A stretch of DNA of 51,773 nucleotides from an uncultured Pelagibacteraceae bacterium (lineage in GTDB: Bacteria; Pseudomonadota; Alphaproteobacteria; Pelagibacterales; Pelagibacteraceae), in contig CACGEW010000008.1 of NCBI GenBank assembly GCA_902572345.1, forward strand, positions 1-51,773. The letters are read 5' to 3'. The number at the start of each line of letters is the position of its first letter. The first letter of the stretch is position 1. Below, one piece after another: positions 11,217 through 14,247 of the stretch. The notes below the pieces were generated by a model that saw only the letters and a program-made list of their open reading frames with translations, did not search any database and was not told where the DNA came from. Position numbers and translations under genes: made by a program.

Positions 11217-12893
11217 ATGGAAATAGATAAACTTAATAGTCTTGTAGAACTATACTTTAAAAAGTGTGAAGAGGTTGATCCCGACAGACCTTTTTTAAAA
11301 TGGTTAAAACCAGGAAAACCAACTTATAGCTGGGGAGATATAAAAGAGAGAATATTTAAACTTTCTTCAAAGATAAAATCTTTAATTCAAGAGGGAGATC
11401 GTTGTTTAATATTATCTGAAAATAGACCGTACTGGTTAATGGCAGATCTTGCTGTGATGAATGCAGGAGGAATATCGGTTCCTATTTTTACAACATACTC
11501 ATCAAATGATTACGAATATATTTTAAATGACTGCAAGCCATCTTTAATTATAGTTTCAAATAATGATCAATTCAAAAAAATAAAAAATTACATTAATTTA
11601 AATGAGCAAAATATAATTTCATTTGAAGCTATAGATGTTGATAGCTTATTAATTAACAATATTTTAAATGAAGAAACTTATAAAAAAGAAATTAATAACG
11701 AATTAAAAAGAAATATGCCTGCATGTATTATTTATACATCAGGCACATCGGGAAATCCTAAAGGAGTTATCTTAAGCCACGGCGGTATTTTATCAAACTG
11801 CGAAGGAGCAGTTGAGTTACTTGAAACTTTAACTAAAAAAAAAGATCCTATTTTTTTAACTTGGTTACCTTTATCTCATTCATATGAACATACAGTTCAA
11901 TTTATTCAAATCATTGTAGGCGCAAAAGTTTTCTACGCTGAAAGTTTAGAAAAATTAATTTCAAATATGGGTGTCGCTAAACCCACCATCATGACAGCTG
12001 TTCCAAGGTTTTATCAAAACCTTTTTACTAAAATAAATATGAATTTTGATAAACAAATAGGTCTTAAAAAAAAATTAATTAATCGAACTTTAGAATTAGG
12101 AAAAAAAATACTTAAAAAAGAGCAATTAAGTCTAAGTGAAAAAATAGTAAATTTTTTATGTGAAAAATTAGTGCGAAAAAAAATCAGAAATCAATTTGGT
12201 GGAAATCTTCAAGCCTTCGTTTCTGGGGGTGGAGCTTTAGATCAAAATATTGGTGAATTTTTAAATGCTATAGGATTACCAACTTTGCAAGGTTACGGTC
12301 TTACAGAAGCCTCTCCTGTTGTAAGCTGCAATTTACCAGATTTAGTCAAAGTCGAATCAGTCGGTCCTCCATTTAGGACTAATAAAGTTAAAATAGCAGG
12401 GGATGGTGAAATTTTAATAAAGGGTGAAAATGTGATGTTGGGTTATTGGAATCTTAAAGAAGAAACTGAAAAAGTAATTAAAGATGGATGGTTATATACC
12501 GGAGATATTGGTGAGTTTGATCAAAATAATTATCTAAAAATAACAGACAGAAAAAAAGATATTATAGTTAATTTAGGTGGTGACAACATTTCGCCAAGTA
12601 AAATTGAAAATATTTTATGTTTAGATGAAAACATTAAACAATCTTTTGTTTATGGAGACAAAAAAAATTATTTAGTTGCAATATTAGTTACAGAAAAAGA
12701 AATTAATAAAGATAAAATTAAACTTATAATTGAAAATATAAATAAAAGTTTAACTTTAATAGAAAAAATTAAAAAATTTGTTTTAATTCATAAAGAATTT
12801 ACAATTGAAAACGGAATGTTAACACCAACTTTAAAGTTAAAAAGAAAAGAAATAATTAAAAATTATAAACAACAATTAGAAAATCTTTATTAA
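11217..12893 (+). CDS. fadD: Long-chain acyl-CoA synthetase (AMP-forming)
   Basis: A 558-residue ANL-superfamily enzyme that activates fatty acids to acyl-CoA through an acyl-adenylate. The P-loop-like A3 motif YTSGTSGNPKGV is near residue 174, LQGYGLTEASPV (A5) near 360, YTGDIGEFDQ (A7) near 427, and ITDRKKDIIVNLGGDNISP (A8 hinge) near 441. Length and motifs fit FadD15-type long-chain synthetases rather than acetyl-CoA synthetase. The ATG follows tRNA-Leu by 4 nt with no Shine-Dalgarno, so the mature mRNA may be nearly leaderless after tRNA processing. The gene ends at the longest AT-only spacer of this half of the window. Confidence 0.92.
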   Translation: MEIDKLNSLVELYFKKCEEVDPDRPFLKWLKPGKPTYSWGDIKERIFKLSSKIKSLIQEGDRCLILSENRPYWLMADLAVMNAGGISVPIFTTYSSNDYEYILNDCKPSLIIVSNNDQFKKIKNYINLNEQNIISFEAIDVDSLLINNILNEETYKKEINNELKRNMPACIIYTSGTSGNPKGVILSHGGILSNCEGAVELLETLTKKKDPIFLTWLPLSHSYEHTVQFIQIIVGAKVFYAESLEKLISNMGVAKPTIMTAVPRFYQNLFTKINMNFDKQIGLKKKLINRTLELGKKILKKEQLSLSEKIVNFLCEKLVRKKIRNQFGGNLQAFVSGGGALDQNIGEFLNAIGLPTLQGYGLTEASPVVSCNLPDLVKVESVGPPFRTNKVKIAGDGEILIKGENVMLGYWNLKEETEKVIKDGWLYTGDIGEFDQNNYLKITDRKKDIIVNLGGDNISPSKIENILCLDENIKQSFVYGDKKNYLVAILVTEKEINKDKIKLIIENINKSLTLIEKIKKFVLIHKEFTIENGMLTPTLKLKRKEIIKNYKQQLENLY

Positions 12894-13024
12894 TTTTACA
12901 AAAAAAGTTTAATAATTTGCTTAAAAAAACATTGATATTACTAACTTTTTTAAAAGTTTATTAAAATTAAAAAAAATTATTAAAAAATTTAAATTTTGAA
13001 TCAATTTTGCAAATTAATTTATGT

Positions 13025-13052
13025 TTGACATGAATCTTTTAATAACTAATGT
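13025..13052 (+). promoter_or_regulatory. Predicted sigma-70 promoter of the basic micropeptide gene
   Basis: A perfect -35 TTGACA (13025-13030) lies upstream of -10 candidate TAATGT (13047-13052, 16-nt spacer). A better -10 match, TTTAAT at 13052-13057, would need a 21-nt spacer. It is the only consensus -35 in this spacer, preceded by about 130 nt of nearly pure A/T sequence. The exact start site is uncertain. Confidence 0.5.
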
Positions 13053-13061
13053 TTAATTAAC

Positions 13062-13084
13062 AAACGAATCATTAAGATTTGTTT
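13062..13084 (+). promoter_or_regulatory. 5' leader hairpin of the basic micropeptide mRNA
   Basis: AAACGAATC (13062-13070) pairs with GATTTGTTT (13076-13084) over nine base pairs including one G-T wobble, with a 5-nt loop ATTAA. It lies between the predicted promoter and the Shine-Dalgarno GGGAG (13093-13097), so it would be the first folded element of the transcript. A stability or translation-control role is inference. Confidence 0.4.
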
Positions 13085-13102
13085 AATAACAAGGGAGAAA
13101 AG

Positions 13103-13177
13103 ATGGCTAAAAGAAGAAAAAAAGCTAAAAAGAAAACTAAAAAGAAAGCTAAAAGAAGAAAAAAAAGAAGAAGATAG
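13103..13177 (+). CDS. 24-residue Lys/Arg-only-type basic micropeptide
   Basis: ATG 13103 to TAG 13175-13177. The product begins MAKRRKKAKKKTKKK and ends in RKKRRR; 20 of 24 residues are Lys or Arg and the rest are Met, Ala and Thr. The gene has every element of a dedicated transcription unit: consensus -35, leader hairpin, a good Shine-Dalgarno (GGGAG, 5-nt spacing) and a perfect intrinsic terminator right after it. I know no named family for it. Its make-up resembles histone H1 tails, protamines or very small basic ribosome-associated peptides such as bTHX, so binding to DNA or rRNA is the natural hypothesis. A-rich sequence can produce Lys/Arg ORFs by chance; the flanking signals argue against that. 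Confidence 0.75.
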   Translation: MAKRRKKAKKKTKKKAKRRKKRRR

Positions 13178-13191
13178 TTTTCTCTTTAACT

Positions 13192-13230
13192 AAACGCCCT
13201 TTTTAATTAATTTAGAAAGGGCGTTTTTTT
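13192..13230 (+). terminator. Intrinsic terminator of the basic micropeptide gene
   Basis: A perfect 11-bp stem, AAACGCCCTTT (13192-13202) with AAAGGGCGTTT (13216-13226), a 13-nt A/T loop, and a T-run 13224-13230. It ends inside the stop codon of convergent carD. On the minus strand the T-run is only three bases, so it works mainly for the plus strand. Confidence 0.9.
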
Positions 13231-13903
13231 ATTCTGAACTTTCTGTAGAAATTGTTCTTCCTAAAGCCTTATCCATTTTTTTTTGAACCTCTTCAGGACT
13301 TATTTTTAGAACAGCTTCAAACTCAGATTTTAATCTTTCATAAGCTTTTTCGAATAGCTGTCTTTCTGAGTAAGATTGATCGGCTATAATATCAGTATTT
13401 TTGTTTAAATCTTTTACAACTTCAGCTAATTCATAAATTTTTCCAGAATTAATTTTCTGATCATATTCCTGGGCTCTTCTACTCCACATTGTTCTTTTAA
13501 TTTTTGGCTTAGTTTTTAATATCGATACACATTTATTGATTTGATTAATTGATGCAATTGGTCTTAATTTTGATTGTTGATTAATTGGAACAGTTAAAGT
13601 TAATTTTTCTTTTTCTACTAAAATTTTATAAAATTGAATATCAATATCTCCAATTGTAGCTTTTTCGATAGAAGTAATCTTTCCCACCCCATGCTTCGGA
13701 TAAACCACAAAATCTTTCAAATTGTAGATTTTTTTTTCTGTTGCCTGTTTTTTAATCTTTTTTATTTCTGGCTTTTCATCTGATCCAGGCACAGCACTTT
13801 TTTTATCTATCGGTTTTATATTTTGTTTAGCTTTTTTAAGTGATTTTAAATTTTTTGCTTTTTTAACTTTTTTAACTTTTTTTACTTTTTTCTTTTTAGG
13901 CAT
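13229..13903 (-). CDS. carD: CarD/CdnL-family RNA polymerase-binding regulator with Lys-rich N-terminal tail
   Basis: A 224-residue protein. Residues 60-120 form the CarD Tudor-like RNAP-interaction domain, with DFVVYPKHGVGKI near 65-77 and IQFYKILVEKEKLTLTVP. The helical C-terminal domain follows, with the MWSRRAQEY region that contacts promoter DNA at the open complex. CarD stabilises open complexes, often at rRNA promoters. Ahead of it is a roughly 55-residue Lys-rich tail with KKVKKVKKAK repeats that is absent from standard CarD (about 160-170 residues). It is last in the helicase-TerB-like-fdxA-carD run and converges on the basic micropeptide gene. Confidence 0.92.
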   Translation of the reverse strand: MPKKKKVKKVKKVKKAKNLKSLKKAKQNIKPIDKKSAVPGSDEKPEIKKIKKQATEKKIYNLKDFVVYPKHGVGKITSIEKATIGDIDIQFYKILVEKEKLTLTVPINQQSKLRPIASINQINKCVSILKTKPKIKRTMWSRRAQEYDQKINSGKIYELAEVVKDLNKNTDIIADQSYSERQLFEKAYERLKSEFEAVLKISPEEVQKKMDKALGRTISTESSE

Positions 13904-13905
13904 AT

Positions 13906-14247
13906 TTATTTTCCAGGTTTTTCAGAGAAATGTTTATCATACTTATCTTTCATATTTTTAAATTTTTCATGGTCTTTCATTGGCTCTTTTTTTTTTGAAA
14001 TATTAGGCCATATTGCAGAAAACTTTTTGTTAATCAATAACCATTTATCCATATCTTTAACACTCTCGTCTGTATCTGCCTTTATCGCATCTATAGGACA
14101 CTCAGGTTCACAAACACCACAATCAATACATTCATCAGGATTAATAGCTAAAAAATTTTCACCTTCGTAAAAACAATCTACAGGGCAAACTTCCACACAA
14201 TCAGTGAGCTTACATTTTATGCATTCATCTTTTACAATATACGTCAT
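13906..14247 (-). CDS. fdxA: Ferredoxin FdxA (3Fe-4S/4Fe-4S type)
   Basis: A 113-residue bacterial-type ferredoxin. Cysteines at 9, 12, 17, 21 and 25 ([17 protein letters not shown]) and at 40, 43, 46 and 50 ([11 protein letters not shown]) give the pattern of the 7-Fe FdxA group, with [15 protein letters not shown] between. The C-terminal 50 residues are the usual helical extension. It is a cytoplasmic one-electron carrier with an unknown partner. It overlaps the TerB-like gene by 4 nt and precedes carD by 2 nt. The helicase-(middle gene)-fdxA-carD order is a recurrent alphaproteobacterial arrangement. Confidence 0.95.

Follow-up and report, generated by a model that had tools for sequence, protein, structure and literature searches.

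A conserved free-standing micro-gene for a 24-codon Lys/Arg-rich product next to carD in SAR11 bacteria

Protamines are Arg-dominated proteins, very short and extremely basic. Tiny ribosomal proteins (bTHX and similar) are basic as well and have a length of about 25 aa. SAR11 bacteria rank among the most abundant cells on Earth and possess a compact, AT-rich genome.

Longer Lys-rich polycations are represented by AlgP (AlgR3) and the PhaF tail in Pseudomonas. As described in the available part of the source, AlgP is a 352-aa protein with a helical N-terminal domain of 124 aa and a Lys/Ala/Pro-rich, disordered, H1-like C-terminal domain with KPAA repeats; it associates with polyP granules and the nucleoid, and KPAA peptides bind DNA in vitro (PMC9239181). 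Hc2 (HctB) of Chlamydia is an H1-like DNA-binding protein, the length of which is set by Lys-rich repeats and amounts to 165-237 aa in C. trachomatis (PMC2848022, available part).

The gene described here is located in a window of 51,773 nucleotides (the whole stretch of DNA that was analysed), where positions 13025-13230 are a free-standing protein-coding gene with a 24-codon product (Table 1). The product, MAKRRKKAKKKTKKKAKRRKKRRR, contains 12 Lys and 7 Arg, i.e., 19 basic residues of 24 (79%, instead of the 20 residues, or 83%, counted in an earlier sequence-only reading), as well as three Ala, no Pro and no KPAA repeat. It shares small size and extreme basicity with protamines, but Lys prevails over Arg (12 to 7), and the long orthologues are Ala/Pro-rich. 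It also resembles bTHX-type proteins in being basic and about 25 aa long; unlike them, it varies strongly in length among relatives, and no sequence similarity was detected, the sensitivity being poor for 24 aa of low complexity.

The long orthologues are Lys/Ala/Pro low-complexity polycations with KPAA-like units, as are AlgP and the PhaF tail. KPAA-type repeats are found in the second family of the order and in genus g12 and are lacking in the 24-mer of the window. In contrast to AlgP, there is no folded N-terminal domain: the orthologues do not exceed 91 aa, and by reading their Lys/Ala repeats have started by about residue 10. Because a separate N-terminal domain is lacking, the orthologues were not filed as members of the AlgP family. 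Like Hc2 and a similar Bordetella protein, they are stand-alone Lys-rich repeat proteins of variable length, although the SAR11 proteins comprise 21-91 aa instead of 165-237 aa. The Lys, Ala and Pro composition of the long forms is also that of the C-terminal tail of eukaryotic histone H1; however, the SAR11 forms have no globular domain, and there is no evidence of common descent.

Organization of the locus

Table 1. Features of the micro-gene and its neighbours (positions in the window)
Feature	Positions	Strand	Remarks
Micro-gene ORF, MAKRRKKAKKKTKKKAKRRKKRRR	13103-13177	+	ATG to TAG, 24 codons
-35 box TTGACA	13025-13030	+	conserved among relatives
Candidate -10 box TAATGT	13047-13052	+	matches 3/6, 16-nt spacer, from sequence alone
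GANTC site 1 (GAATC)	12998-13002	+	5' of the -35 box
GANTC site 2 (GAATC)	13032-13036	+	between -35 and -10
GANTC site 3, within the invariant leader CGAATC	13066-13070	+	CGAATC in 95/96 loci
Leader hairpin AAACGAATC-ATTAA-GATTTGTTT	13062-13084	+	fold prediction
Shine-Dalgarno GGGAG	13093-13097	+	5 nt before ATG
Intrinsic terminator, 15-bp stem followed by a T run	13192-13226	+	at the 3' end of convergent carD
carD (CarD/CdnL-type RNA polymerase-binding protein)	13229-13903	-	PF21095 E 2.7e-20, PF02559 E 6e-12
fdxA, ferredoxin, upstream of carD	13906-14247	-	NF045490 E 2.3e-46
AMP-binding (acyl-CoA synthetase-like) gene	11217-12893	+	PF00501 E 9.2e-67

The sequence-only reading regarded the 206 bases as a self-contained gene, and its ORF, leader hairpin, Shine-Dalgarno sequence and terminator were all recovered in place. 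The promoter it proposed stands in part: the -35 box is conserved (TTGACA in 88 of 93 loci), and the -10 box is poor, with three matches of six. A consensus promoter scan made no call for the micro-gene promoter. The leader hairpin has a stem of nine pairs, including one G-U, and is predicted to begin a few nt from the mRNA 5' end. The terminator was called on the plus strand only and is the only terminator-like site listed in 12500-13700, where shuffled sequences give 0.1 on average. The fold of the RNA 13045-13235, terminator included, is 3.5 sd below that of shuffles (z -3.5).

The upstream neighbour on the same strand is the AMP-binding gene, and carD is the convergent neighbour. The CarD N-terminal extension (MPKKKKVKKVKKVKKAKNLKSLKKAKQ..., 13800-13903, minus strand) is Lys-rich and represents a second Lys-rich product of the locus. 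The CarD open frame comprises mostly about 270-325 aa in genus g4 versus 230 in the window.

Conservation of the gene and its reading frame

An initial search (query 13104-13175, one base off frame, E up to 10) gave matches in 55 of 197 genomes of the window's family; the off-frame query still found the right loci, since the DNA is conserved. Thirty of these loci (L002-L031, L002 being the window's own) contained carD in 30 cases, fdxA in 29 and the synthetase gene in 26, the loci devoid of fdxA or the synthetase gene being near contig ends. The ORF was in the correct frame in all 30. Of 397 genomes from the order, 85 matched a degenerate DNA pattern, whereas the reversed control pattern had no matches; the modest number results from sequence variation and not from absence of the gene. 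Among the matches listed (80 loci of at least 120 stretches), all named genomes with the pattern are titled Pelagibacteraceae or Pelagibacterales, by which the window is assigned to SAR11. One pattern match away from carD (L034) proved to be the start of an unrelated 473-aa ORF and was dropped.

With carD alone as the query, a match was obtained in 217 of 247 genomes of the order. Forty-one carD-anchored loci were fetched, 20 from genomes without an on-target pattern match and 21 from other genera or the second family, covering eight genera of the window's family (18 loci from g4 and 12 from g2, g3, g5, g6, g7, g9 and g12) and four genera of the second family (11 loci); genus labels were assigned by hand from tables. 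The micro-gene adjoins carD in all 41, one copy being frameshifted, which rules out a chance ORF. The frameshifted copy (L086, 1368-1511, carD on the minus strand) has a one-base insertion within a run of A (A8 versus A7 in L027), by which the last codons are shifted and the Arg tail is replaced; it could be an assembly error or a true change. Another copy (L085) has a GTG start. The synthetase gene is located upstream in 29 of the 41 loci; it was not found there in the 11 second-family loci nor in L078, where the contig ends.

In the window's genus, all 17 genomes with a carD match also carry the pattern. Six other genomes of this genus (G018, G064, G079, G098, G102 and G106, 89-98% complete) have neither, whether because the segment was lost, because it diverged or because the assemblies have gaps. 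Beside carD in 28 loci from other alphaproteobacterial families, no similar ORF was found (filter: 20-300 aa, >33% Lys/Arg, >70% Lys/Arg/Ala/Pro/Thr), although every one of these loci contains carD and 20 of them contain fdxA as well. The 58-aa form had no match at E 1e-6 in 289 genomes of the class, an absence that shows nothing. A phage origin was considered as well; viral contigs contained no exact pattern match, which rules out close copies only.

For the codon analysis, ORFs were extracted if basic and preceded by a Shine-Dalgarno-like match, as was the case in 100 of 101 loci (the exception being L034); removal of four duplicates left 96, and L086 was excluded from codon counts. In 68 unique ORFs (codons 2-5 of second-family ORFs excluded), 1642 codons consisted of A and G only, and G occupied codon positions 1, 2 and 3 in 0, 416 and 350 cases, respectively. 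Substitutions were counted along 32 minimum-spanning pairs; the ORFs of a pair were equal in length and differed at no more than nine positions (g1, g4, second family). In frame, 52 changes were synonymous and 22 nonsynonymous, versus 1:72 and 12:59 in the other two frames. The synonymous fraction of 0.703, obtained from pairs that are not fully independent and ORFs chosen through a Lys/Arg filter, compares with 0.309 (sd 0.045) in a null with the same substitutions placed at random, and none of 2000 null runs was as high; new Asp, Glu, Gly or stop codons numbered 0 against 14.9 in the null. A looser count of nearest neighbours at any distance gave 10:8 for g1 and 38:25 for g4; for the second family, with its misaligned repeats, the ratio was 23:41.

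The Lys/Arg filter cannot explain a synonymous excess between basic codons, and it hides few degenerate copies, because the carD-anchored loci carry the gene. Two basic residues followed by the stop terminate 95 of 96 ORFs, and no acidic residue occurs beyond residue 4 in 95 ORFs. The constraint is synonymous and frame-specific, with start and stop kept. What is kept is the reading frame and not A-richness, and a non-coding purine-rich RNA is contradicted by the frame-specific substitutions and the G counts at codon positions. The same ORF beside carD with codon-level conservation, proposed in the sequence-only reading as the thing to look for, is therefore present (41/41 loci, 52:22 in frame), and the outcome it named as contrary, a drifting frame with only A-richness or RNA folding conserved, is contradicted by the comparison with the other two frames.

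The ORF of the window includes A runs of 7 (13117-13123) and 8 (13159-13166), which are slippery-like. Frameshifting or stalling at Lys codons in these runs could affect expression.

Upstream region and GANTC sites

All 93 loci with a full upstream have TTGAC (TTGACA in the 88 mentioned above), and the -35 box precedes CGAATC by 39-42 nt in 92 of the 93. The only leader of 96 without CGAATC is cut by the contig end and still has GAATC (L019). The distance from the start of the -35 box to CGAATC is about 40 nt, which puts CGAATC close to the predicted transcript 5' end; CGAATC starts or overlaps the hairpin. GGRG lies no more than 16 nt from the start in all 96 loci, a Shine-Dalgarno-like match having also been a condition of extraction. 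GATTC or GATTT is the usual partner arm of the hairpin in g1-g4, g6 and the second family. The arm pattern fits 73 loci, of which 70 have A-U, G-U or G-C as the outer pair and 3 have a mismatch. The motif CGAATCA-N1-10-GATTYG was found once in the gene's own genome, so that a regulon defined by this leader hairpin was rejected.

The window contains fewer GANTC sites than expected (88 versus 147, 0.6-fold). This depletion is milder than the at-least-2-fold average depletion stated in the available part of PMC3973325 for Alphaproteobacteria other than Rickettsiales. Despite the depletion, three GANTC sites lie within 73 bases (12998-13070). Each of the 93 full upstreams (105 nt) has at least one GANTC, against an expectation of 0.16-0.18. 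Upstreams from g1, g4, g6 and the second family have about two on average, those from the other genera 1.0-1.3; a count of two does not represent independent sites in g4 and the second family, because the hairpin palindrome supplies the second one. An additional GANTC upstream of CGAATC occurs in 17 of 22 g1 loci versus 6 of 71 others.

The own genome encodes an N6/N4-methyltransferase (PF01555 E 9.8e-69, 361-aa frame, L256), which adjoins an RNase HII-like ORF (RNase HII read by eye). A PF01555 methyltransferase beside RNase HII is presumably the usual ccrM arrangement. A CcrM homologue in SAR11 (PMC3973325) and the same methyltransferase/RNase HII neighbour pair in Ca. P. ubique (PMC2704228) are described in the available parts of these sources. 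The enzyme is called CcrM-type here on the grounds of PF01555, the neighbour and these papers rather than a CcrM-specific model. A GANTC site conserved in position within the promoter coexists with a CcrM-type enzyme in the genome, and control of the micro-gene by CcrM is offered as a testable proposal: methylation of GANTC at the transcript start could link transcription to replication or the cell cycle. The 5' hairpin could stabilise the short mRNA.

Alternatively, CGAATC and the hairpin could be an RNA feature only, i.e., a 5' stabiliser or a protein site, without a CcrM switch. The chances of this explanation are about even, and it is compatible with the reading of the product given below. 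In nearly all g1 leaders, and in those of g2 and g3, the 3' arm is GATTTG, by which a G-U pair keeps the pairing and the second GANTC is lost, and A-U, G-U and G-C all occur as the outer pair. However, in g5, g7, g9 and g12 the predicted hairpin moves downstream and CGAA is mostly unpaired, yet CGAATC is unchanged; pairing alone is insufficient there, so the CGAATC sequence itself is probably recognised by something.

Length variation and nature of the product

The orthologues comprise 23-24 aa in the window's genus, 21-35 in g4, 23 in g2, 21 in g3, 21 in the intact g6 copy, 31 in g5, 32 in g7, 36-38 in g9, 34-58 in g12 (KPAAKK-type forms) and 76-91 in 11 of 11 second-family loci, where they are Lys/Ala/Pro repeat proteins, e.g., MEELKVIFAKARKKAKKKAAPKKKRKAAKRKPAKKKAAPKKKK... 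Within the order the length ranges from 21 to 91 aa, the forms differing by Lys/Ala/Pro units. In an alignment of 12, few parts are as well conserved as the N-terminus, and MAKRRKKAKK is found in 29 of the 30 loci L002-L031. Short and long forms are regarded as the same gene because of their place, shared upstream and shared start region.

By analogy of composition, the product is probably a very short, repeat-poor, nucleic-acid-binding relative of the bacterial histone-H1-tail-like proteins; nucleic-acid binding is suggested by the composition together with the published DNA binding of KPAA peptides. MAKRRKKAKKKTKKKAKRRKKRRR would be a disordered polycation, which with 19 basic side chains could coat and neutralise the backbones of DNA (probably also of RNA) without sequence specificity and work beside HU/IHF. 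The own genome has three separate HU/IHF-type matches (PF00216), which were counted against this reading, and MAKRRKKAKKKTKKKAKRRKKRRR does not match the Bac_DNA_binding profile PF00216. Likeness by composition can also arise through convergence. The protamine-like nucleoid peptide of the sequence-only reading gains, as far as the nucleoid is concerned, from the longer orthologues of H1-tail composition, though 'H1-tail-like' is the better description.

Neither short nor long forms were matched by a Pfam or NCBIfam model (meaningless matches at E 3.6-8.5 only), and the solved-structure search returned nothing useful for either (one match at E 0.52). These results say little, because low-complexity proteins are poorly served by HMM and BLAST statistics. 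The PF07382 (HC2) profile gave no case over the cut-off in 40 genomes of the order and likewise none in 14 control genomes, which makes this a weak test; one case at E 0.92 has two stops inside. Profile scans of the short and long forms gave no HC2 match either. The remark in the sequence-only reading that no described family was known was too strong, as the longer orthologues resemble H1-like bacterial proteins. Titles and abstract starts among the literature matches listed contained no description of the gene, and it is not mentioned in the available parts of PMC2704228, PMC5069961, PMC8707726, PMC3686209, PMC13198564, PMC3973325, PMC9239181, PMC2848022 and PMC5069720.

A conserved polycation gene with no matching family model provides a handle on chromosome packing or RNA management in SAR11, and the order offers a natural series of sizes, from 91 down to 21 residues, by which the minimum working length of an H1 tail can be addressed. 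Because of the GANTC pattern, it is possible to test in a streamlined genome whether such a protein is under cell-cycle control. Low-complexity filters of family models would tend to overlook such genes. More tentatively, and less probably than not, the SAR11 order may carry its own nucleoid protein, an H1 tail cut down to 21-24 residues in some genera, its transcription timed to replication by CcrM via a fixed GANTC at the transcript 5' end. If so, it would count as one of the smallest known nucleoid proteins of a chromosome, produced from a stand-alone micro-gene.

A small basic protein bound to the ribosome or RNA, lying in rRNA grooves and stabilising the ribosome as bTHX-like proteins do, is an unlikely but still serious alternative. 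The size and charge of MAKRRKKAKKKTKKKAKRRKKRRR fit tiny ribosomal proteins, and a specific binding site could explain the conserved N-terminus. On the other hand, a range of 21-91 aa within one order is unusual for a fixed site, the immediate neighbour genes are not ribosomal, and no ribosomal model of Pfam/NCBIfam (up to E 10) or PDB chain matched the 24-mer, in searches of poor sensitivity. Still less probable is a role in balancing the charge of some other polyanion, chiefly polyphosphate, or in scaffolding a condensate. Its model is the nearest described analogue, AlgP, which associates with polyP granules too (PMC9239181, available part), but the genes adjoining the micro-gene, the only ones considered here, have no polyP link. 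A purine-rich regulatory RNA with an incidental ORF, also raised in the sequence-only reading, would suit the own -35 box, hairpins, terminator and strong fold (z -3.5), but it can hardly be maintained against the frame-specific substitution pattern and the missing G at codon position 1 (0 of 1642 A/G-only codons, versus 416 and 350), and Rfam at gathering thresholds has no match at the locus, the matches in the window being two tRNAs only.

The H1-tail-like protein may have a nucleoid function and may have shrunk from a longer ancestor. In a carD + fdxA tree (39 of 73 usable loci, midpoint root) the second family lies on one side, and among the genera of the window's family g5/g7/g9/g12 are separated from g1-g4 and g6. 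A longer ancestor that lost repeats is the simplest reading; since no outgroup has the gene, growth from a short form may have occurred instead. In 9 of the 11 second-family loci (L092-L096, L098, L100-L102) the stop is followed on the 3' side by two consecutive stem-loops with T runs, e.g., GCATTGATTAATCAATGC(T)9 and then GCGCCC...GGGGCG(T)6.
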